From Patiria pectinifera (Eukaryota > Echinodermata > Asteroidea > Valvatida > Asterinidae): a stretch of DNA of 64,000 bases. The translations under genes were made by a program, and so were the position numbers. Within the stretch, counting starts at the first letter, position 1, and each line of letters starts with the position of its first letter. The notes beneath the pieces are model-generated. The model saw nothing but the letters and a program-made list of their open reading frames with translations, was not told the DNA's origin and made no database searches. Location: contig CM057140.1 in NCBI GenBank assembly GCA_029964075.1, forward strand, positions 14,960,643 through 15,024,642. Direction: 5' to 3'. Shown here one piece after another: positions 6,879 through 62,700 of this stretch.

Positions 6879-9800
6879 ATGGCTACGGGAGAAAGGTCCC
6901 GTGGAATAAAGGTGCATTCTCCAGGACTTCACGAGGCTCTGGTGGCTGATGTTAAACCGACAGAACGCGTAAGATCATCGGTAAGTTTTGGACCAGGAAA
7001 TGGTTTATCAATTTATTGCACTGCACTACCGCACTTTGTACGCTGCAGTGCCCGGTAGGCTTTTGTCACGCTACGGTCCGAAAAAACGTCGGAGTACGCC
7101 CAGTCTGCAAAAATTTAAAAAAAAAGTTTACTCCCAAAAAAAGACTAAATGCCTGATTTTTGACCTTGTGTTTTTTATTTTAAATGTTCTAAATGAATCT
7201 TATTGAAAGTAGGCCCTATTTTTGGTTTCTTTGAAAAAATAATAATAATATTGCCTACATTTTTTCTAGCCAAGATATTTTTTATAAATGAATGTTTATT
7301 TGAAGTTTAATTCTTTCTTACATGTTTAACTTAAGCTGTCGGTTTTGTTTACCCTTTTTTATGTTTTGCATTTTTATAGTCCTTGTTTATGCACTGTCAG
7401 CGTTAAACCTTTTTGAGTTATGAATCTCATTACAGCTGTGTTTTAACGAGTAATTTAATAAAAAGAGTTTTTCTCCAAAACCAAACTAATGAATGACAGA
7501 TCTGTTCTTTACATTTAGAATATTGCTGAAATAAATTTGCACTTGTACTGAAGAGCCATCAGATTTATTTTGTTTATGCTTGCACTAAGCTTGATTCAAG
7601 CTTCAAGATTCAAGAAGACATTTATTCCAAACTCCTTTTGGAAAATACATCGATAATTAAAGAAAATTAGAACATAAGAAAATAATAAGATCACTATGTA
7701 TTGTACATAAATAATGCACGATTGGAACTAATAATTAAATAAGAATTATGATCTATGTACAAGAGAAAAGAAAGAGTATGAGGCTGCTTAAGTAAGCTAG
7801 TACCAGAAACAGTCATCGAGTGTTGAACTGTCCTCGTGCCAAGTCATATCAGGCATCAGGACATCGTGTTATTACGTAGCAACCGACGAAGGGACACTCA
7901 GGATTCTGCTGTAGATTGATGTTGTCTTTGTTAAATATTAAACAAGTGAATGGACCATTACCAGTAGATTGCAAAATAAATGACATTCTGGTGAAATTAT
8001 GCCTAGTATCATTATATTTCTTCTTTTATGGATCATATTTTTTGGAAGGTGTACATGTAGCTATTTCACAAACAAAAAGAAGTACTTTTCCAATTTTTAT
8101 TTTTTTGTGCATAAAACTGCAACAACCGAACAAGTTTGAAGATGACTGTAAACAGAACTGATATTTTGTAACTTTTTTCAGAATTTTCTTTTTAATTGTT
8201 AATTTCTTTCTTTCTTATTTTTGTTAAAGCCCGGCAGGCGAGATTCCAGACGAAAGCTTCCTGAGACCAAGCGACCATGGTCAACACCAGCGATCAGTCG
8301 GTCAAGCACTACGCTATCAGCTAACAGCAGTCGGACATCGATTGACCAGAGTGCCAAGATACAGAACTGGCTGTGCCAGAAATCTATACGTGGGGTTCAG
8401 GTATGTCCAAAAATACTTCAGTCAAAAACATGTAATGATGGTCAGACAAAAATGATTGAAATGTTAAGTTAACATCTTTGGTCCCTTTCAGAATCACACC
8501 TCTGTTATGGAGAATCGGGGAACAAAGACGTTGTACACTCATCAAGACGGCTCCAGTAATGTGGAGGCATTGTGCTATTCATTGTACAAAACTGCTCCAT
8601 GACAGTTACTCTGACAATGTTACCAAAGAAACTCAAAACATTGTTTCCCCAAAATAATTAATTTGTTGGACACTAATAGTAATAAGGAATCGTATTCTCC
8701 GTTTTTTCCCAACCCAGAGTCAGAAACCTTTTAATTGCTTGTTCTCCTCAGTGTGTTTACCTTGCAAATTTACATTGGACCCTCCCCACCTCGGACTGTT
8801 TACACAGCCAAGACCCTCATTGATTCCAAACCCTCATAAAAAGACAAACCCTTACATTGTAATTAGCACGGATGGAGAACTCTTCTGTGGAGTGTGGACA
8901 TTAGTAGATTGGCCAGAGATCGTTTGCATTCCTTTTCGAGATGACCATTACCAGTGCGTGCTATTTAGATGGGCGTAAAGTAGTTTGTTAATGTGCATTG
9001 ATTGCTTCTTGTGCCTAGCAACCCAGAAAAGTCAACAGATGTTTTGAATAATGTTTAACAGTGTTCTAAAATGATTAAGACTTAACCTTTCTGTCAAAAT
9101 GCCCAATGCAAGTTAATGATTTACCAAATTATTGATTTACTATTGGCCACATCCAAATCTATTTCTGTTGCCTCAGTATTCACTCTAATATTAAGTCTTT
9201 TAAATGTAAATAAAAAAAAAATGTGTGGTATCTAGTGTCAAAATCAATAATCATCATAAAATGCTACAGTCAACAACGTGTCCTGGGCAAACAATATTGA
9301 GCAGTACGGATCCATAGAACTTGCATCAGTGAACATTATGGACTTTGTGTTGTTTATTCCAAATCAACATATTAACACCTACCTTTTTAAAGATTTGAGT
9401 TTCCGCGGAAATTATATTTGTATTATCACAAAAATGTTTGACTACATAAAAATGTGTCAAGTTGCATTTTAAAAACTCATTTCAAATTATATATGCTTGA
9501 TATTGTCCATTTCACATTTTTAACCAATTTTTTTCTTTTGGTTTGACATACAGGAAAGGGCCGACCCTGAATCTAAAGAAACTAAAAAATTGTACATGGC
9601 AGTCCTAGACAGAGAAAACACATTCGTCAGGGTTAGTGTTGACAATTTCACAATAATTATCCAATTTTAATCATCAAAGGTCGTTGTACCAACCTATTTG
9701 TCATTTTTCACATTTACATTGTAAATCTTACTTTTTTCAGTGTGTTCTCATATCTCATTGTTTTAAAAATATCACATATAATTTGTATAATTTGTAAAGG

Positions 9801-11847
9801 CTGAATATTTTTCTCTTGTTATGTTTAAAATGATCCAAAGTTAATATCACATATTTGTATAATTTGTAAAGGCTGAATATTTTTCTCTCGTTATGTTTAA
9901 AATGATCCAAAGTTTTGTTTCAGAATGGCATTGAATTTTCTCATTTGTAAATGTCCCTTTTTCCCAGAATAAATTTGTAATTATAATGAAAAAAACCCTC
10001 ACCAAGCAAACCTTTAAGCTTAAGATTAGTTCAATAATAATGATGATGTTTGGAAATGATACCTTTTTCCCTGGCAGGATGTTGATAATTTCCTGACGGA
10101 GAAATCCTTCCTGGACCTACGTAAGAAGGAGATGCTGTATAAGAAGTGGAATGAACGCATCTTTGCTCCTCTCCAAGAGCAGATCTACCGGGAGATGAAA
10201 GGAAACTACGCAGCGGTGGACAAGAGAAAGAGGGCGCTCTTCCTTGAGTATCTACGACACAGAAATAAAAAGGTAACAATATTTTCTTGAATGGTTGGAT
10301 AAATATGTCCATTTTTTAATGAGTGAAATAATTATAACACTTACGAGGAAATGGTTTGTTCTTAAATTCAAACATTTTTGTTTTCCTAGTTATAAAAACT
10401 AAACAGTTTTTGATTGATGATTTTGTTGACAATATTTTGTTTTCTTTTGTTTGTTTGTTGGCAGGGCTTTGTTTCTCTAGACATCTATGATCCCATAGAG
10501 TATGATCCTCTCAAGTTAGTCGTCCCTCGTCCAGCCCCCATCGTAGCACAGACTGATACACTGGACGATCCCCTCATAGCCCAACAACGCAATAGGAATG
10601 ATGAAGATAGAACCATCATAAGATGTAGAACAGGTATGTGCGATAGAGAACATTAATGGGTTTTTAGCTAGCTTCTTCAAGATTTTGGAAGTGTTTTAGA
10701 ATGCTCTCTTTTTTATAACACAATTGAAGGACACATTTTGTAGCTTTGAGGTTTCATTTAGGGTTTTTTGGATGCATACCATGTAGCCAAAAATAGATCC
10801 ATGCCTTAAAAAACATACACAGAAAGGCAATGCCAAAAGTTGTATCGTTAACTTAAGGCATCCTGAGAAGCACATGAAATATTCTCTCAGCAGTATAAGG
10901 TTACCAGACAACCTTACAATTTTCACTCTTTGTTCTATTACAGGGAGAACCCTTTCTGATTCAGCCGTTGAGGTCCAGCGCTTGCCACCCTTACCCCTTG
11001 TGCCTCTTGGTCGGCACGGAACCGAATGCCGTACCTGGCTTGCCATGCCTCTACATGACATTGAGAGTCCAGTCAGAATGAGCAGCAGGTCAGTAGTCTT
11101 TGACACACCCAACTTTTCAACTTCACAGACAAAAGTTGGAGGGGTTTGAAAAATAGTCTTCATCTCCAGTTTCAGTATCATTTGGAAGCCTTCCATGTCC
11201 AGACAATGGAAACACTCAACTTGAACCTCTCAAGCATTTCTAGTACTTAAAGCAAAACCATATTCTGAGGCAAAGTCAAAGTTTCAACACCTGCTTTGTA
11301 AGATTAGATGGTATTCCGTGTCTGTATTACCCTTTTCTTGTTCCATTTTTCCCTGAAATTTCCTTGTTACTGTTAATGCAAAAAAAAATTGAAAATCAAA
11401 TTTGTCCAATAATTATATTCCTTATAACTAATAATTAAAAACTGTAACATGTACTAAAAACACAATTTTCATTCAGAAATCAGATTTCTACAATTGCAGA
11501 AGACTTAGGAGTTTGGGGTCTGTCTGTTTTGCTTCAAGTGTTCCTGGATTCCCTTTTTGGGGGAATAGAGGGTATAGACAACCGCAGTTTGTCCAATTGA
11601 TGTCTTGTAACCAGAAATCATTTTTAGTAATCCTACTATGTACATGTACAAATGTATTAATTTTCTATTTCCTGTTGTGACTTGTAATCTTTTCAGGCGA
11701 CGCATGAAAGGTGTTTTCAACGACTCCCACTTTGACTTTGAGGAGTGGTCCAAGTTGACCTTTGACCCGACCATCGTGGACGAGGAGATGAAATGCCAGA
11801 AGAAGAGAGTGTACACCAGCCAACAACCCACCATGGTTTCGTCATAG
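6879..11847 (+). CDS. FAM228B: FAM228 family protein, 7 coding exons, 336 aa
   Basis: Exons: 6879-6980, 8230-8400, 9554-9631, 10078-10272, 10465-10633, 10944-11088, 11697-11847. All junctions are GT-AG and phases agree, giving 336 aa ending in TAG. The core FLTEKSFLDLRKKEMLYKKW (exon 4) and FLEYLRHRNKKGFVSLDIYD with the following PIEYDPL (exons 4-5) are the signature of the FAM228 family. Human members are A and B, with B about 324 aa from memory. Their biochemical function is unknown and expression is often testis or ciliated tissue. The N-terminal 90 residues are Ser/Arg-rich and likely disordered; the central region is charged and helical; no signal peptide or membrane segment is visible. 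The exon 2 acceptor at 8230 was chosen over one at 8238 because the latter shifts into a stop. The gene is divergent from PFN4. Confidence 0.9.
9768..9914 (+). repeat. Tandem duplication of about 75 bp in a FAM228 intron
   Basis: Copies 9768-9842 and 9843-9914 share AATATCACATAT, AATTTGTAAAGGCTGAATAT and AAAATGATCCAAAGTT in the same order. They differ by a 3-base deletion and a T/C change in the CTCTTG versus CTCTCG block. This is a recent tandem duplication between FAM228 exons 3 and 4. Confidence 0.9.
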
Positions 11848-40778: not shown

Positions 40779-43700
40779 TCAGAAGTTTTCTTTGTTGTAG
40801 AAGAATTTGGCTCCTCCTTTGATGTTGGAGTGCTTGTTTGAACACTTGTGGAGAACCTGGGAGAGGATTTTGGGTCCGCAGTAGAAGACTCCAACACTGG
40901 TGCTAAGACAAGGCAAATGAAAGAAGGTTCAAGTTTTATTATGAGAAGCTAAATTCTATGAATTATGAACAAAATAAACACCCCCCCCCATAAAAAAACC
41001 ACTATGCAATGTTTTGGCTTACCCTGGGTTCTCCTCTGCGATCACCTTGAAGATGTCATCCCACTTGGGCCGGCCGTAGTTGGTCTTCTGTCTCAGGCCG
41101 GTGATGGCATCAACCTCCTCCTCCTCCTGCAAGTAGATGTTCTTGGCCTGCAAGAAAAAAAAATTCCAAAGGAGTAAATCTTGGGAAAAGCTTGTCTTCT
41201 TAGGTATTCTAGGTAGAAAGTAAAAAAAAAACCACCACTTTTATCAGCTTGTTTGGGCTCTGTGCACAAGTACCCCCTCAATGGTAAGAAAGGGAGAGTT
41301 GGGGGAGACCACTGGGAGGGACATTTTAATGCATTGCCGATGCCTGATGCTCACACGAAGACGCTATGGCTTTGTGTACATTCAGAATAAAATAAGTAAT
41401 GCGTACTTCGCGCTACATGCATGTGAACCAGTACGCTCACGCAGTGTGTCCCATCCATGGGCTCTCGAAAGTGGTCAACAGCGCCCTCTCTTGTTCACAC
41501 ACGGAGCTCATAGTCCCTGAACGTTTGGATTCTTGCCATAGAGCTACATTAAATTACTAGAGCACTGACTCATGTACGAATTGATGCCTGCTGGGCAGCT
41601 CTATACAGGTGCGTTACTGAAGCCGATACGCCTAAAACCGAAATGCACGATCAGCAAATGAGCGTTTCATTTTGTTAGCACTCTAGTAATTTAATATAGC
41701 TCTATGATTCTTGCTCAGACTAACCTGCTTAGTGCTCCAGCCCCTGGTCAGGTAGATGTTATACTTGAGGAAATCAGCCTTTCCTTGCTCTATCATGTGA
41801 ACCTCCAATGCGTCCAACATCTCTGAGAACCACTCAAAGGCGTTGGTGTCCGGGCAGATCCAGAAGAAATAGACCTTCTTCAGCTTCAACTCCAGGTCTG
41901 GCATCATACTCTGATGCCTGGAGGAAAACAAAAAACAAAAAGAGCAACAAAGATTCCCGTCAGTGCTTTTTGAAAAGTAATTTTACAATTATTTCAGACT
42001 CAGCTTTCCCACCAAGCAAAAATGTATTAAGATTGACTAAAGTCTACCTACACAGAAGTCAGTGTCACACAGAGGATCTTTATTTACTGATTTTCCTGGA
42101 CTGAACTTTGACTAGAAGTTTCCGAAAGGGGTAACACATTTAAGTTTGCTCATCTTCATCAAATGGTTTCTCAATTTTTTTTTAGAGACTCTGCAACAGT
42201 GGTGTAGTCGAGTTCATGATAAGGCCATCACAAATCCTCCAGTCAGAAGTAAATCACACCTCCAATCATAAGCAACAGCAGATGAACAACAACAAAGGAA
42301 TGCCGTCGTCACAGGTCCTTTGAACAGCTTGTGACTTGATTCAGGACTGGACGACTTTTCTTAAAGATGTGAGGATTTAGAACTCAACTACCACAGTGCT
42401 CTGAATTGCAACTCACCAAATAGAACGAAGGATGGATGCAAACGGCGTCACCCCAATCCCAGCACCTACGCAGATAGCCGCTTGATACTTGAAGACATCC
42501 AGACTAGCCGTGCCAAACGGGCCGTCCACAGCTACCCTGGCCAGGTCGGTAGACTCCGTGGTTGTGTTACCGTCGGCTCCCATCGCCTTGGCTAGGTCTG
42601 TGGTCCAGTCACCGACGGTACGGACGTGAATGCTGAAGAAGTCATCTTCAGGAGCCTATCACAAATAAAAATCGGAAAACTAAAACCAGTCGAGTCTATC
42701 AGAAGTCCATTACAAGTCCAGTCACAAGTAAATCACAAGTCCGTTCACAAGCCCAGGAGGAGGAACTATATATCCAAGGAATGCCTCTGCCACAGTTTGT
42801 TTGAATAGCTTGTGACTTGACTTGTGATGGACAGACGAACGCTGGAAATACTGCAAATACGCATCAACTGAAATGAGTTTCACGACAGTAAAAGATTCAA
42901 GTCTTACCGAGGTGAGAGTAAACGGATGCCACTGGATGTGAGACAGGGAGGGACACTTGAGGAAGATGTACTGTCCTGACAGCATCTTGAAACCAGACTT
43001 CTTCATCTGAAGCTCAATCACCTATGGATAATCAATACATCCAGTCAGCAATCAATCAATCATCAATTACCAATAGTCATCAATAACCAATAACTATTCA
43101 TAACCAATAACCATTTACTAAATGCTATGCCACAACTCGTCACAAATAGTCATTTATAAATCACTATCTTTGGTTGTATCGCACTGTAATCAATAATCAA
43201 TAACCATAGATTAGTTCTTAGTAATTATCAATTATTAATCAATTGTTCACCTTAGACGGGTGCTTGACTACTTTGATGACTTGCACAGTCTGACAGCTGC
43301 GAATGAACCTGACGAATCTCTCTAGGATGTAGATGGCAATGGGTCCGACCACCCATTTCCAACTCTGAAAACGGGCCAAAAACAAAATAAACAATGAGAT
43401 GAGAAAGGGCACAAGTACAAATAGTACAAGAAGTAACAAGTTAAAATGAGACAGATTTTTTTCATCTGATTTATAAGTCCAAGTCAGTGATACCCACAAA
43501 ATGCATGTGAAAAAGTACAAAAGCAACTGGTATGGGAAGAAACATTTTTCTGAGCAGTTTGCGTTTTCAGGTTGTGGTCTGGGGATATAGGTAATTTTTC
43601 TGAAACTTTTTTCAAAATGGTCAATAAAATTATTTTCAAGGCAGGATTTGGTTGGTGTGTTATTGCAAGTTGTGAAATGCCATGTTTAATTTCAGGACAC

Positions 43701-46700
43701 CTTTAATTCCCCCCCCCCCCCAAAAGGGGAAAATGTCACCAGGCAGGGCAAGTAGCCCCCACCCCCCTTGTGGGAGACCCCTGATTCTCAGTCATGAGTT
43801 TAAGGACTAAGTTGTTAACATCAATAAGAGGGGTTACTTACAGCTGCACTGCCCTTGACAAAGTTAGGATAGGGACACGGCTGGCTGCCCGGTGGTCCCC
43901 ACAGCTCCGGCTGAATGGAGCAGGTTGTGATGTTATGCTCAACCAAGTTGGACTGAGAACGGATCACTCCTCTGGGAAAAATAAAAAGATTTGAAATCTA
44001 TCTTCGTTATCATCCAAATGGCATCACTCTGATCTCAATGCCATGAAAGTGCTGATCAAAACAAATTGAGGATTTCTGAAAATATCTAGTCTTCAAAATT
44101 AAAGTATAATATTCAAAAATATGATGTGTCATTCATTCAAAACATAACACAAAGAAAAGACACTGGTTTGAAATCAAGTGTTAGTTCACATACTCCCATA
44201 TTTCTGTGTTGCACCCTGATACTCAAACCATACCTCTTAAAATCCATTTAAAGATATGCATGATATTGGTCTGAACCTATTTCTCAATAAGTTACTTTTA
44301 TTCCTGACTTACCCGACTCCATGGACAAGCAACATGGCAAAGTAGATAACAAACAGATGATGAGTTACCCAGAATGTCTCAAAGTACGAACGTCTAGCAG
44401 GTAAAAAAAAAAAAAAATCAATTGAAATGTTCTTAAACCACTGTCCGATACACTTCCCATCCATAATACAGATAACAGCAAAACAATAAAATATTACAAA
44501 GTTACAAAAGATTTCTAATTTATATGGCTCATATTTTGAATTTTTTTGAAATTTTGTTCATTGTTTGAAGTTTTGTCCTTAATTTTACAATACTTAATAT
44601 CCCTGTAGTATGATTGACTTTTTTTCAGTGCCTTTCAATGGGGGGGGGGGGGGGGCCTAGTGGTTAGGGTTTGTGACTCATGATCAGAGGGTCAGGGGTT
44701 CGAATCCAGCTGCTGGAAATTGCAAGCCACTTCACCTTCACTTGCCTCTCTCCACCCAGGAGTATACATGGGTACCGGCATTAGCTGGGGAGTAACCTGC
44801 GATGGACTGGCATCCCATCCAGGGGGAATAGAAATATTCTCAGTCATTTCATGCTACTGAAACCTGAGATAAACGCCGGCCTGATGGGCCACATTGCCTC
44901 GTGACAGACTTTACTTTCACTTTACCTCTCTTAGGCCAGTAAAAAGTATTGACTATAACCGGCATGAATTGCAAGTTTTGCTACAGTGACAAAGCAGACG
45001 ATCCAGGAGTCAATTTACAATACAAACACGGACATGTATTGATGCAAAGGAAAAAACATGTGACAATAACAAAACATTCAATCCGCAAACTTCCTTTTTT
45101 CTCTCTCAAAGTTTCCTGTTCTGAACTACCAGGCAGTGTCTCTCGTCCGAGTACAGTTTCCGCATTTCACAACTTTCATTTTACTAAACTAAAAACTGGA
45201 GAAGTTTCCCTTTGATGTTTCCAACACTGGAAATCCCCAGACAAGTCTCCCAACAGAAAGCAGAACAAAGTTTCACGCTTCACTCCCGTGTATTGGTTTT
45301 CATTTACTAGTATCTTATAGAACACTATCCCACTAGAATAACCCTTCTGTAACTCAAGATACCAGAGTTGAAAACATTCACTTGTAATTTCGATGTTTCA
45401 CAATTTCATGATTGCCATTATGTCATTCTTCCTTCTCAATTCCTGGGCTTGCAGAAAAAAACTGGTTGGCAAATTTATGTGCTTAGCAGAAGTTAGCGGG
45501 GGACCAGTCACAAGCAATATCAATGCATGGCATTATGGCTGGTAACCCGCTTTTGCTTAGCTAGTATTTTCTGTTCTTAGCAACTTTCTGCGCTTAGTAG
45601 CTCCAGGACATGCCCCTGCTCATGAAGAAAAAGAAGACGTAATTACCGAATGAACTCGGTGGCCGAGGAAAACATGATGATAAAAACTAGCGTCAGAACC
45701 ACGCCTGACCATCCGGCAATCTGGATGATGCCCTGCTCGATGAGGGGGAAACCGAAGGGTAGAGCCTGCGGGGAAACAAACAAACAAACAAATAAACAAA
45801 TGAAACAAAATGAAAGACACCTCAACACTGTTTCTTTTCAAAAACTACGAGCAATGTTAAAAAAAAAAAAAATTATAAGATGGAATTTTGCATCGGGGTG
45901 ATGTAAATCAAATTAGGGTTTTTTTTATCAATGTTAAAAAGTGTTTGTTAAAAAATGTTTGTCTTTGAGGTTTGGAAACTTTCAGAATTGTTTAAGTTTC
46001 AGGAACAGTTGTAGGCTGTCTAATCTGCAGTCATCATTAAAAAAAAAAAAATTCTGTAAAAACACCCAGTGAGAACATGTTTCCTGGTAATTAGGCCAAA
46101 TGGAGCTGACAATTTTTTATGCCAAATTGACCAAGAAAATTAAAAAGATGGACATCCATACGTTGTTTTTGTACAGTACTGGGTTGATCCAAGTTCCTCC
46201 CTCCTTGTTGGGTAAATCTCTCAGCTGGCATGAGATGCCGGTGTAGGGGCTACCAACAGGAAAGTAGGTCTCACAGCTGTTGAAGTGGTCGTACAAGTTA
46301 CGGAAGTTGAAGAAATGAGCGATGCAGTGGACGATGTTCAGCAGGCAGATCATGTACGCCAGGGTCTTGTGGAATGTTATGTTCTTGTCAAGCTGGCGAC
46401 GAACACTACGTCGACAAAGCTGGAGTGTTGGAAGTAAACGAGGAAAACAACACAACAACAAAATTTAGACAAATCAAACAAGATGTTTGTTTACTGAAAT
46501 GTCACAAATTTTACAGAAAGAAAAAAATTAATAGATCAATTTGCACTAAATTTTTGCTTTGAACTTTAATGCCATTTAACTGTTCTTGAATCAGTCAAAA
46601 CAAAATTCAGCAATTTCTTCTACAACCTAAAATTTCCATTTAACTGTTTTTAAATTGGTAACACACCCCCTCCCCCTCCAAAAAAGCTATAAACTTTCAA

Positions 46701-54116: not shown

Positions 54117-54282
54117 GTAAGCTAGTTCAATAAAAGTAAATCAGCTGGCTGTGTGGGAAAAAAAGCAACAGAAATTGTTTTAAATTTCATCTTCAATCTA
54201 GTAAGCTAGTTCAATAAAAGTAAATCAGCTGGCTGTGTGGGAAAAAAAGCAACAGAAATTGTTTTAAATTTCATCTTCAATC
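54117..54282. repeat. Identical 84-bp tandem duplication
   Basis: Segments 54117-54198 and 54201-54282 are identical over 82 bases (starting GTAAGCTAGTTCAATAAAAG, ending CATCTTCAATC), offset 84. Complete identity suggests a very recent event or an assembly duplication. Confidence 0.95.
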
Positions 54283-54876: not shown

Positions 54877-57800
54877 TTACGCCGACTCGGTGGGTTTATC
54901 TTCTGTTGAATCTCCTGAGGATCTGCAGCAGAAATAAAAAAGAGCAAAATTACTCAAATAGATTATAGGATATTTTGGGGGCACTGCTCCCTTTTTTTTT
55001 TTGGAGGGGGGGAGATTGGGCGGGGAGTCGGGGGTGGGCTGGATGAGGGGTGTCGGTGCTGACAGGCGCGGCAGGGGAAAGGCATTTTGTGAAACTCTAC
55101 AAGGCAGAATTATTTAATAACAACTACTTTATCCCATTCCCAAGAAACAAGTGGAAAATTACAACATTACAACAACGACCAACAACCCTGCTTCTACGTT
55201 ATAAGCCACTGATAACTTTGTAATAGGAAAGCATTGAATCTTAAATAACTGATAGACAACAATTTTACAACAAAGTTCTGGAGTAACATGTACTTTATTG
55301 CTTTTGGTGATGGACTTTCTGTATCAGGAACTGCTGAGGCAGCTGCTGCAGGTGCAGGTGGTGGTGGTGCTGCTGCAGGTGCTGGTGCTACTGCTGCAGG
55401 TGCTGATGTCGCTACGGTTGCTGCTGTTCCTACTGCTTTAGAACCACTGTCAAGAAATAAAACCCATTTCTTGATCAACAGAGGGCGCTATTGCCTATCA
55501 ACAATTGTCAGTGAGTGCTGGGCACTGGAGTGCGGAACATTTCAAAATCATGCAATCAGATATTGTAGTTCGCTCGTACCCCCCGCCCTGCAAACAGGAC
55601 GCTGGTCAGGGCTGACGTCATTTGAGCTCTCATTGGATAGATTTGCGTGACCTGTGACGTAGAACGCGTCACACAAACTAGCTTCCGGTGCCCATCATGC
55701 GTAGCGCGCGCTAGCTGCATGCAAAGGTCAATATGTACTTCCTTTACAAGATTCTGTGAAGCTCATCAGCCCTGACCAGCGCCCTGTTTGCAGGGCCCCG
55801 GGGTACGAGCCAAATATTGTAGTTTAGTGAATTTGATATGAATTGACACGAATTCTTCAGAGAAAAGTTAAATGGACGTTGATCCATCTTTCAAGATGAG
55901 AAGGCACATAACAATACAGAACACATTGGTTATGCTTAAACCATTGTTCCAACTACCTCCACATATTTTTTTCTGATTACACAATCATCTGAACTTGGAT
56001 TAACTTACTAGTTATGCTTAAACCACCGTCCCAACTGGCCGATTTGAGCGCATTCGTTGGTGAAGTGACATGCAAACAGTAGACTGTTGCGTGGCTTGAC
56101 CATCCATGCAAACCGCATGAATAGGGCTGAGTAGATACACAGAGCTTGAAGTAGAAATACATGAAACAAAAGTTACATAGAAGCTTAAACTACGCAATTA
56201 AATTAACTAAATGTAATACCCTGTGTTTGCAGCCCCCTAAAAAACACGTGAGCATTCGGCGGTTTTCATCTCAAGTTTTTCAGACATTATCGAACTCCAG
56301 AGGGCAAAAGCATTTTCAATCTTTCAAAAATAGAGCAAGCTCTACACATTTAGAAGCTGTGCATTTTTGACAGAAAATCTGTCTGTCTTACAACAATAGA
56401 GGGAGCTATCCACACTTGGTAGTTGTGCATTTTGTGTATGACAAAAAATATTCAGAAACTCGAGAAGGTACACAAATGTTTCTAAATTTTCAAAACAAAA
56501 GTTGAATGTCTATGGAGAACTACTGCACAAAAGTTTTAGAGAATTGTGTCCTTTTGTTTGCTAAAAAGTCAACAACTTAAAGAAATGGTAAAATGAAAAT
56601 ATGACCTTTATAGCAATGAAAACTATGTGTGGTATCAGTGAGCTCTTGTGTGGTTCTAATAATTTTTTAAACCCATCCATCTTTTTTTTTTTCAAACTGG
56701 CATGATTGATGTCAACAGCGCCCTCGTGTGGCCTACCTGCTGTCATCCTTGGGCTGATGATTTCTGGGTCTCTCCTCATGTCACCCATTGCAGCGAGGGG
56801 AATTCCCCAGTTGGCAACTGCATGATGTCATCAAACAAACAAACACCGTCTGTCATTAATGATTGCTGTAATACCTTCCACATTGGTGGCATATTAACAT
56901 ATAGAACTATTGATTATGATCTACATGTACTTCACGAATCAAAAACTGCAAGTTGACAACAACTTTTGCACTGTCTTCGAAATTCGACTCGTCTTATCCA
57001 GGTAGGTTTTTTTTTAAAACAAGTGAATAAACCAATAGAATCATGCCATAAAAAAAAATGATTAAGGACATTTACGATCTTCTATTTATGTATTCAGAAT
57101 TTGACCTTTCTAAATCCACATGGCTGGAACTCAATGCTCAAATAGAATTCAATACGTAATGCCATGATGCAATGTCCAATCTATTAATAACTCGGAAACA
57201 GATGTTCACCAATTTTATCTTGACAATGTGCACTTATGCTATGGAATGTATAATGTACAAAACTGACATATTGGTACGTGATTTAAAAATACCATTACCT
57301 TATCACTACAAATATGAAAACAGTATTCAATGTCTAAATTTGCTGCGAACGATAAATGTTTCTATTTTTTCCCCGTATGACCTATTTTTAAATATCTGAT
57401 AAGCTAGATGAAAATTCTTTAAATAATCAAACTTACCTGGTCCCCAGAAATGCTGAAAAGAACAACAAATTTAAAACCATTTAGTGCTCAGGATTACTTG
57501 GAAATAGGACTCATGTACAGTATAGGATTCATAATGATAGGAATTATTTGAAAATAAGCATTTGGGTTTGTTTTGGTATTGTTATTAATACTTTTACTTA
57601 TTTTCATTTTAAAACATCAATGTAGAAACATGTTACCACATAAATGTTATAAAAAAAATAATTCAGTTCAAAAATATGCACAGTATGCAGTTGTATGAAT
57701 TGTGGGTGCATATAATCTATGAAAAATCCCACTTTATATGAACTGTATAACTAGCTTTGTGACTACTGCACAAGTTGCTACATTATGGTAAAATTATTAT

Positions 57801-59096
57801 GTTTAGAAAAAATACTTACTGTGCTGTGACATCGGAACAGCGTAGCATCAGATGTCGGAGGAAAATGGAAAATGTGAAATTTAATATTCCAAGTATCTGG
57901 ACACAAACAAGTTTTCCTACAGCGTAGCATCAGATGTTGGAGGAAAATGGAAAATGTGAAATTTAATATTTCAAGTATCTGGACACAAACAAGTTTTCCT
58001 ACAAAAGCATGCATGTATAATGAAGATATAATACATTTCATTGTGGTAAAAATACAGCATTCAAAAAGATATGTACATGTATTCATACATGTACATACAT
58101 ACTATGAAAAGCTTCCACTTCCAGCAGCAGCAGGCCTAGGCCTCATCACAATTTCAATGAAGACTTTTAAAATTTCATCTTAATATTAGGCAGTGGATAT
58201 TTGACCGTGAACCGGTCCCTGATTGTTTTCAGTATTGTACCGGCACGGCACTGAACATGTGCAGCGAGTGTTTTTTGGGAATCGGACCAAATTTTTATTT
58301 CAGACTTTAGTTCCCTTAGAATCCTCCGGAGCCACGAATGAGAAAAAGATGAAATACTCTACAATTAAACTTAGGATTCCATTTAGAACAATAAAAGAAA
58401 ATTCTTCTTTTTTGGACACAAAAAATATAGTTTCAAGAAAATCTATCACGCTGGGACTCAACTTGAGCAGCTTTTATTGCGAGGTGGGCCTGCTATCCAC
58501 TAAGCCATGCATTCGCTTGACGAGAAATAGTACCCGGGTAAATTAATATCTTTTTTTATGGTGTAGGCTAGTCCAAAAATTTGGGACTCTCAATACTGTC
58601 CCGTGTTTGAGAGCCCCAAAACCTAATTAAGGTATTGAAAACATGGAATACGACTACGAGAAAATGATGATCAAGTCTTATCATCATTTTTGCGACGAAT
58701 GACCTTCATTGAGATGATATATGAAGAAAAAAAGTTGCGTCAGGTTACAACATTTTTTCCAAAAAAAAGTAACGATATGCAATGACCAATGTTGAATGTA
58801 AATAAACACATCTAATCTTACTTAGTTGGACATAATACTATGCCTAGGCTGCGCCTACTCGTTATTTTCAATTATAAATTATTTTATAACGAATTTCAAT
58901 TTAATATAATACGCCAAAAAATAATGACAAACCTGAAGAAATACTGTCCCCATGTCAACTCTGTCTGCACAGGTTTCTTGGCCGCTGCAGTGCCGTCTGA
59001 AGCAGCGAATCGCCGGCAAACATGACTCTGTGTCTTTATAAAACGTGCAGTTCTCTTGCTGAAAAGATTGGCGGCTGATCGTACACAAACTGCCAT
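54877..59096 (-). CDS. MPC1: Mitochondrial pyruvate carrier subunit MPC1-like, extended at both ends, about 199 aa
   Basis: Exons in transcript order: 59096-58933, 57823-57820 (4 nt, tentative), 57452-57437 (16 nt), 56817-56737, 56144-56009, 55446-55294, 54922-54877. The joined core reads [50 protein letters not shown] and [20 protein letters not shown], which is MPC1: it pairs with MPC2 to carry pyruvate across the inner mitochondrial membrane. Normal MPC1 is about 109 aa with little outside the core. Here an Arg-rich, acid-poor N-terminus ([19 protein letters not shown]) looks like a cleavable mitochondrial presequence, and after the core comes an Ala/Pro-rich tail of about 65 residues. ATG 59096 has A at -3 and G at +4. 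The last junction uses a weak donor (GTACAT); without it the frame runs to a TAG at about 55197. The core exons are certain; the micro-exon and tail are less so. Confidence 0.85.
55560..55824. mobile_element. MITE with about 45-bp inverted ends and 9-11 bp target duplication
   Basis: The direct repeat ATATTGTAGTT occurs at 55560-55570 and 55814-55824. Between them the left end GCTCGTACCCC, then CCCTGCAAACAGG and GCTGGTCAGGGCTGA, is mirrored by TCAGCCCTGACCAGC, CCTGTTTGCAGGG and GGGGTACGAGC at the right. A 9-bp TSD with TT(C/G)GCTCG ends, or 11 bp, both fit; 9 bp would suggest a Mutator-like origin. It lies in an MPC1-like intron. Confidence 0.8.
57437..57452 (-). other. MPC1: 16-nt micro-exon of MPC1-like gene
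   Basis: CATTTCTGGGGACCAG is flanked by acceptor GTTCTTTTCAG and donor GTAAGTTTG on the minus strand. It codes HFWGP plus the first base of Val, the most conserved block of MPC1, and joins in phase to VANWGIP in the next exon. Confidence 0.9.
57820..57823 (-). other. MPC1: Candidate 4-nt micro-exon of MPC1-like gene
   Basis: CACA lies between GATGTCACAG and GTAAGTATTT on the minus strand. Exon 1 ends in phase 2 (TTC AG) and the 16-nt exon starts in phase 0, so a piece of length 1 modulo 3 is required. CACA yields Ser-Thr, giving the family sequence STHFWGP. An alternative in-frame exon of 97 nt (57916-57820), with acceptor GCTGTAG, would insert 31 residues instead. Confidence 0.6.
57838..58002. 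repeat. 82-bp tandem duplication in MPC1-like intron 1
   Basis: Copies starting at 57838 and 57920 share CAGCGTAGCATCAGATGT, GGAGGAAAATGGAAAATGTG and CAAACAAGTTTTCCTAC and differ at two positions. The left copy begins 15 bases from the CACA micro-exon, and the duplication carries the alternative acceptor. Confidence 0.95.
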
Positions 59097-59772: not shown

Positions 59773-62700
59773 ATGAGTGATCGACTTATCAACGAAGGAG
59801 TGAAATGGATGTTGGTGGTAAGTCACCATATGCAGTGATGGCAAGCAAAAGTCTACATATGCCTACTAAAAAAAGTACTTTAGTATAAATTGTGTGCATT
59901 TAAATTTTTAATTACATTTGTCTATTTGACAACAGCAACAGGGAGTGATTTTTATGAATTAAAATGATATAAAAATCTTTAACATGCATGATAAACTTTG
60001 CAACGCATAGGACAATCACACTTAGCTCTATGTTATGTTTTTTTCCCTCATAAACATGATAAATTGTGAAATTTGACTCATGTTACAATGTTTTGCTTGA
60101 TGGTTTTTTGAATGGTAAAAAAAATGGTACACAAACATTTACATTTTTATAATTTAAAATAATATGCTAGATTTCATGACGTCTGTCCATTTCATTTGCA
60201 GTTTTTGTGGTTTGTGGCCAATCTAGTCGCATGGCTGGCGTCCTACTTGACCTACGCCAACTCAGATGAATTCTTCTACATGCGGCATCTCATGGGGGTA
60301 AGTTTGTCATCCCACAAATTGGTGGGAAAAAAAACCTACAATTTTAAATTTTGAAGATTCCTAAATTGTAAAATTTTATAAAAAGATTTAGGTTGAATAG
60401 ATTTGTAACGAATCTAGTCTATTGTTGCTACCAGGCGAGTCTTCCCGTTGCTAGGGCGAGTGCTACATGTCTCAACCTCAACAGTATGATGATCCTGCTC
60501 CCAGTCTGTCGCAACATCATTTCCTTCTTCAGAGGATCTTGTGAGACAAATAGGGTAAGACTACACCCCTCCCCCAACCCAAGTTGTCACTTCCTCCCCC
60601 GCACCACAACACCGCACCCCCAAAGTGTTCTGAAACATCATCTTGTTTCTTTTGATTCTGTTAGGAGCATCTTTCTCAAGAGGAATTGTTCTCCTTAACA
60701 TCAACTGGTTCACTAGGATGCATTTATTTGAAATGTAGATATTCTTGAAAGTTAGATTTTATGAATCTTTGGGGAAAATGCCATCTTCAAAGATTTCTCT
60801 TGAAAATAATGAAAGGCACAAAAGGGAGGGTTAAGCCTAAATCTACCCTAGCCTGTTAAATCATGCCTTCCCACTAACAATTTTGCCTTTATCATCATTC
60901 AAAGTTTCAAGTGTCTTTGTTTCAGTATTATCGTCGTAATCTGAGACGTCAGCTTGACAAGAACATCACCTTCCACAAAGTGGTTGCCTACTTGGTTGTG
61001 TTCTTCACCATCATCCACGTCGTTAGTCATTGTTTCAATTCCCAAAACCTCTACAACTCAGTCACTAATGAATCCGGACCACTGGCTACAATCTTGAGCT
61101 CAAAACGAACAGAATCGGGAAATTTCCTCAATCCTATTCAAGTACTCAATAAGGTATGTACTCGAACCTTCTTTTCTATTTTTTTCCTTCGTGTTTTTTT
61201 ATGGAATGGGGGCTGAGTTATTACAATCTAAGTTGAAACTTATACTCAGCCTTAACTCCCTAGCCAGTTTTGCTGATCTAGCCTGATTCCATTAAAATCA
61301 ACAAGCCTGCAAGAACTAAACAGCACTTTCTTGATATTTCTTGTAAAGTTAGTCGCTTGCTAGGCTCTTCCTGAGAACTCTTGATCTTCCTCGTGGGTTT
61401 TAAAGAATCTGATTATGTAAATTGTGTCCTTGGGCAAGACATTTTACAACAATTTCATTCCTTCATCAATGAGTAAGTGAGTGCCTCTGAGGGTTTGAAA
61501 ATTGGCAGTGAGTGATGAGTTGGAAGTGAGAAGTTGTTTTTGAAGGTATCACGTCTTTATAATAGCATCGGTCCAACTATAGTTGGGGCTGTCCTAACTA
61601 TAGCTGGGGCTGTCCTAACTATAGCTGGGGCTGTCCTAACTATAGTTGGGACTGTTCTAACTACAGTAAGGGCTGTCCTTAACTATAGCTGGGGCTGTCC
61701 TAACTATAGCTGGGGCTGTCCTAACTATAGTTGGGACTGTTCTAACTACAGTAAGGGCTGTCCTAACTATAGCTGGGGCTGTCCTAACTATAGCTGGGGC
61801 TGTCCTAACTATAGTTGGGGCTGTCCTAACTATAGTTGGGACTGTTCCAACTACAGTAAGGGCTGTCCTAACAATAGCTGGGGCTGTCCTAACTATAGCT
61901 GGGGCTGTCCTAACTATAGCTGGGGCTGTCCTAACTATAGTTGGGGCTGTCCTAACTATAGTTGGGGCTGTCCTTACTATAGTTGGGGCTGTCCTAACTA
62001 TAGTTGGGGCTGTCCTAACTATAGCTGGGGCTGTCCTAACTATAGCTGGGGCTGTCCTAACTATAGTTGGGATGGTCCAAACTATAGTTGGGACGATGTT
62101 ATTGTTGGGCGTATCAAAGACAGCAACTGTCAATTGCACATCTCCTCAGTTAGTTTGAGTGTTTTCAGAAACATTTATTGGCCAGACAATCAGGGGTAAT
62201 ATGTCTCCTAATTTTCTTGTTTCTTGTCTCAGAGTCCGTATGGTCTGACTCTTATTGACAAGGTGTTGCAGTTGCTTCCTGGATGGACCGGTGCCGTCCT
62301 TACATTAGTCCTTATTGTCATGTTTTCATCTTCAACAGAATTTATCAGGTACGCAGGTTGAAATCTACCTCATCTTTGCCCCAAAAAATAATTTTTAAAT
62401 GTAAAAGTCACCATGGTGATATTTTATATTCACGTAAAAAAAAAATTGGCAATTTTGAGATTGTAATTTTAAATTAAAATGACACAGTTTTCAAAGACTT
62501 CCAATATTTCACCAGAATTCACAAACACTTGATATGATCTCATTTTTATTTACATGTACTTATATTTAAAATTTCAATATGTTCAAATTATTTTTTGAAT
62601 TGACGCATGAATCTTGCATTGGCCAATGATGATAACATTCCTGTATGTCAATAACCGTTTGATATTGACCTTCATCAATTGTCCCAATCAGCAACGTTTA

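Follow-up and report, generated by a model that had tools for sequence, protein, structure and literature searches.

How is the protein signature of a carrier kept intact when it is cut into exons of a few nucleotides? This question is raised by the MPC1 gene of the sea star Patiria pectinifera, which lies in the 64,000-nt stretch of DNA analysed here (the window). A preliminary description had divided the STHFWGPV block of MPC1 over exon 1, which ends in phase 2, a 4-nt exon reading CACA, a 16-nt exon and the exon that follows, and all of its coordinates hold. The reading of the signature through a 4-nt and a 16-nt exon is borne out by the reading frame, by a gap-free alignment to MPC1, by the splice scores and by a 4-bp microexon that the accessible text of one study describes in human MPC1.

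The MPC1 gene and its surroundings

The MPC1 coding region is complete on the minus strand of the window (59096-56008). Joining exon 1, CACA and the 16-nt, 81-nt and 137-nt exons (Table 1) across introns of 1109, 367, 619 and 592 nt gave a protein of 133 amino acids. Residues 49-132 of this protein (84 residues) aligned without gaps to residues 18-101 of 9mnw_A (E = 2.8e-35), the best-scoring solved MPC1 chain, which we take to be the human one, and the alignment runs through the Ser-Thr pair completed by CACA. Solved MPC2 chains gave weaker matches (7.8e-9 to 5.4e-8), and the Pfam MPC family PF03650 matched the joined protein at 2.3e-31. Judged by these alignments, the gene is MPC1, nearer to the MPC1 than to the MPC2 chains.

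The genome (613.5 Mb, 1020 contigs) was searched with the protein and with the Pfam family, only the best candidates being scored in each case. MPC1 was found at a single locus, with four candidates scored in the protein search and three matches, all of them exons of this gene; no processed copy (retrocopy) was found among these best candidates. The Pfam search, in which six candidates were scored, returned the window locus and a second MPC-family locus about 8 Mb off on the same contig (G000:C12:6917096-6917443), which was unmatched by the MPC1 protein search and is probably MPC2. When relatives of MPC1 were sought in viral contigs, seven stretches fitted the pattern and none was confirmed. 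The genome also gave a bindin match (1.0e-33), which points to an echinoderm, bindin being known from that group; a search for COX1, meant to place the clade through its genetic code, gave no match.

Other features share the window with MPC1. Likely exons of the NADPH-oxidase/ferric-reductase type occur at 46117-46464 (-), 41683-41982 (-) and 60878-61216 (+); among the three, there are two Ferric_reduct matches just under the cut-off and one NAD_binding_6 match above it, and the exon at 60.9 kb matches the cytochrome b-245 heavy chain. Two genes of this type may lie on opposite strands around MPC1. A minisatellite at 61571-62092 is built of about 25 copies of 21-bp units (consensus GTCCTAACTATAGTTGGGGCT), with several frames open. 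A search of the window against Rfam gave no match at gathering scores.

Table 1. Coordinates, in the window, of the MPC1 exons and of the elements around the 4-nt exon.
Feature	Position	Strand	Description
Exon 1, coding part	59096-58933	-	164 nt; carries the ATG and an N-terminal extension; phase-2 end, AG; donor GTTTGT
82-bp tandem duplication	58001-57838	-	copy 1 58001-57920, copy 2 57919-57838; two mismatches
Possible 97-nt alternative exon	57916-57820	-	acceptor at the duplication junction, donor of CACA, open frame, +31 residues
3' splice-site region of CACA	57824-57896	-	71 nt without AG, then the acceptor AG
4-nt exon CACA	57823-57820	-	flanked by tcacag and gtaagt; codes Ser-Thr with the AG of exon 1; donor GTAAGT
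16-nt exon	57452-57437	-	HFWGP and the G of Val; acceptor TTCTTTTCAG, donor GTAAGT
81-nt exon	56817-56737	-	codes 27 residues
Last coding exon	56144-56008	-	137 nt including the stop

Frame, splice sites and acceptor of the CACA exon

Skipping of CACA had been said to break the frame, and its inclusion to restore the Ser-Thr expected of the family, and both statements proved correct. With CACA included, the last AG of exon 1 is completed to AGC ACA and the protein reads QYFF-ST-HFWGPVANWG; with CACA skipped, the reading shifts out of frame and meets a stop at codon 74, 39 nt ahead of the last junction. As far as sequence can tell, exon 1 is followed, ahead of the exon coding HFWGP, by an internal coding exon of 4 nt that is essential to the frame.

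Possible internal exons, running from an AG to a GT and up to 249 nt long, were listed across the 1480-nt interval, the donor of exon 1 and the acceptor of the 16-nt exon being fixed. Those at least 30 nt from the interval ends, in frame and free of stops were kept (n = 59), and their splice sites were scored with a simple matrix whose site frequencies come from general knowledge. CACA ranked first (4.7), the 97-nt exon that shares its donor ranked second (3.9), and the third candidate scored -0.4. Three of the 59 are 4 nt long, and an ending in [ST][ST] is found in only two, CACA and the 97-nt form. The donor of exon 1 is weak (score 0.9) and is the best of nine GT donors listed with a preceding open frame; the other eight each scored below it. 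Taken by themselves, frame and residues speak weakly for CACA, but combined with the splice sites and the alignment to the family they make strong evidence. We infer that CACA is included in the mRNA, very probably as the main form, and the exon is most likely constitutive.

The pyrimidine tract at the CACA exon is displaced upstream of the acceptor AG. Its best window holds 20 pyrimidines in 25 at -51 to -27, and the best windows of the three downstream MPC1 exons lie at -28 to -4. Within 100 nt upstream of CACA, YTNAY is matched only at -52 and -25, each with a candidate branch-point A. Of the 7170 AGs that the window holds on its two strands, 126 had an AG-free stretch this long when thresholds were taken from the CACA site itself, and 19, the CACA site included, combined such a stretch with a displaced tract. 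The AG-free stretch alone is unremarkable within the interval, where 5 of 63 inter-AG gaps reach at least 70 nt. Nor is the CACA acceptor poorer in pyrimidines close by, with 13/22 at -25 to -3, the same count as at the 81-nt exon.

An inverted repeat of 6 bp, GACATC...GATGTC (57828-57856, minus strand), lies between the tract and the CACA acceptor; in its counterpart in copy 1 of the duplication the first G is an A and the second arm is missing. A hairpin of this repeat was considered as a means of shortening the way from tract to AG and was rejected as not above chance: its z was -1.1 to -1.2, and among the window's 7178 AGs, 583 have a 6-bp hairpin just as near.

The 82-bp duplication and a possible 97-nt form

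The tract region of the CACA 3' splice site is spanned by an 82-bp tandem duplication, with the CACA acceptor and donor outside the copied unit. TRF placed the repeat at 57837-58003 with 97% matches, and a search of the genome met the duplication at one place. It had been credited with creating a second acceptor. This stands insofar as a second TAG now sits behind a copied, displaced tract; the TAG did not come from nothing, however, and already heads copy 1, behind CTTTTG. The 97-nt exon that begins at this second TAG ends, as had been described, at the donor of CACA, keeps the frame and is open. Use of the acceptor that belongs to copy 1, which would give a 179-nt form, was also tried and rejected; this form runs into a stop.

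Of the alternatives to a gene read chiefly through CACA, the one that survives best holds that both acceptors are used, giving 4-nt and 97-nt isoforms in some tissue or stage. The tracts upstream of the two acceptors are near-identical, in copies that differ by two bases. The accessible text of PMC1431707 reports that human exons with AG-free zones of at least 100 nt are more often alternative, but the zones here measure 71 nt at the CACA acceptor and 60 nt at the 97-nt acceptor. Moreover, 31 residues placed just ahead of the first membrane segment would probably harm the carrier. We regard the use of both acceptors as unlikely, and expect about as little that use of the 97-nt form would be detectable. 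Somewhat less likely again is that the duplication gave a real two-way choice, between a canonical carrier made through the 4-nt exon and one longer by 31 residues made through the 97-nt exon; if true, this would be a natural case of a microexon becoming an exon of normal size.

A second alternative is that the duplication is an artefact of assembly or of haplotypes. Neighbouring copies that are 97% identical would fit such an origin, but two bases differ between them and the same window holds other two-copy tandem repeats, at 54117-54282 (84 bp, 100%) and 9781-9914 (72 bp, 98%), so that duplications of this kind seem usual. An artefact appears improbable. Because these 72- and 84-bp repeats share its window, the 82-bp duplication looks ordinary there, and this genome may hold many short tandem duplications.

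Third, the 97-nt exon could be the main form, with CACA alone unused; the duplication would then have turned a microexon into an exon of ordinary size and lengthened the carrier by 31 residues. This form has an open frame, the donor of CACA, the second splice score of the 59 and an acceptor behind the copied tract (20/25 at -40 to -16), and its protein scores nearly as well against Pfam as the 4-nt protein (107.5 against 108.6 bits, a gap of 1.1 bits). However, the Pfam match of the 97-nt protein begins only at residue 85, just before Ser-Thr, where that of the 4-nt protein begins six residues before Ser-Thr. The 31-residue insert, which would directly precede the first conserved block of the carrier, is without a Pfam match. 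The frame would be kept in one case in three anyway, and the 93 added nucleotides were open in frame in 929 of 5000 shuffles as well, so the open frame of this form is not telling. The human form, in the accessible text of PMC9929638, is also one of 4 nt. A leading role for the 97-nt exon is very improbable, and we think its use minor or absent.

Least credible of all is that CACA belongs to the noise of the intron, with the true junction at some other place: 21.7% of 4000 dinucleotide shuffles of the interval did hold an AG-N4-GT exon with Ser/Thr-Ser/Thr when splice scores were ignored, but only 2 of the 4000 held one scoring at least as well as CACA, whose observed value was the cut-off (the number was 53 when 4-nt exons of any sequence were counted), the [ST][ST] ending occurs in no other of the 59 exons than CACA and the 97-nt form that shares its donor, and there is a close human parallel, TACG, in the accessible text of PMC9929638.

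Human MPC1 exon 2 and other tiny exons

Four-nucleotide exons had been called rare and hard to define. This is true in general, but for MPC1 both the case and its likely solution are already published for human, in a study known to us through its accessible text (Koh et al. 2023, PMC9929638). Exon 2 of human MPC1 is described there as a constitutive 4-bp microexon, TACG, studied in minigenes, whose skipping was undetectable even when NMD was blocked with cycloheximide. Flanks of 67 nt on the upstream and 6 nt on the downstream side are enough for inclusion. The upstream region holds a pyrimidine-rich part at -67 to -43 (22/25), branch points at -68 and -64 (-63 in the paper's discussion) and, downstream of the tract, a TGTCTG direct repeat in a region tested by deletion only. 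The authors suggest that the distance of the tract and branch point eases crowding around so small an exon.

The human and echinoderm exons share their gene, their length of 4 nt and their place as second exon; both can supply Ser-Thr before HFWGP, and both have a tract displaced upstream of the AG (22/25 in human, 20/25 here). After AG, the human exon would read AGT ACG, Ser-Thr, matching the AGC ACA of the echinoderm. In contrast, the echinoderm tract is 16 nt nearer to the AG, and the TGTCTG repeat is absent from the last 67 nt before CACA, up to one mismatch being allowed. Because the human test described in the accessible text was a deletion of the whole region, we treat this repeat as non-defining for the 4-nt exon of MPC1. 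The introns flanking the microexon are 1109 and 367 nt long in the echinoderm but over 12 and 3 kb in human, and the 82-bp duplication is a further echinoderm difference. The exon after the microexon differs as well. The published coordinates (intron 3 at chr6:166,366,107-166,366,794, a piece of exon 3 to 166,366,843; one length is garbled in PMC9929638) suggest a human exon 3 of at least 49 nt, against 16 nt here, and the 16-nt exon would therefore reflect an extra intron in the echinoderm or an intron loss in human.

These likenesses suggest that CACA, with its introns, is orthologous to human exon 2 and is most likely recognised in the same manner. A branch point and a U2AF-binding pyrimidine tract would lie about 30-55 nt upstream rather than adjoining the AG, and this distance would leave U1 space at a GTAAGT donor lying four bases past the AG. 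Inclusion would join C-ACA to the AG of exon 1 and give Ser-Thr ahead of HFWGP, and skipping would shift the frame; an intron that splits the one longer human exon would give the 16-nt exon. The 82-bp duplication would have arisen recently and locally, copying the tract region and adding a second acceptor, usable and probably minor. We infer both this mode of recognition and the minor part given to the 97-nt form.

The oddity of CACA is real, and it is part of a known and probably ancient case. New with respect to human are the 16-nt next exon and the duplication that permits a frame-keeping 97-nt alternative. In a literature search that was incomplete and thin on subscription journals, no microexon was met in an invertebrate MPC1, and MPC1 and microexons were found together only in PMC9929638, as far as its accessible text goes. 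Should CACA and human exon 2 be orthologous, an exon of 4 nt on which the frame depends has persisted, together with the layout of its displaced tract, since the chordate-echinoderm ancestor. The echinoderm site also offers a distant comparison by which the important part of the 67-nt region in human may be sought, with the tract shared and the TGTCTG repeat not. A gene annotation from which tiny exons are dropped would cut the MPC1 protein short or join it wrongly.

Two further systems resemble this locus in part, as described in the accessible texts of the papers concerned. Adjacent microexons in plants, such as the 5-nt and 12-nt exons of rice (PMC8831610), are likewise two tiny exons in series, in a gene and lineage unrelated to echinoderm MPC1. 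The second system comprises exons whose branch points are distant and whose AG exclusion zones are large (PMC1431707). They likewise have an AG-free stretch and a tract that is set back, but their zones reach at least 100 nt and the class is enriched in alternative exons, whereas the zone at CACA measures 71 nt and the exon is probably constitutive.
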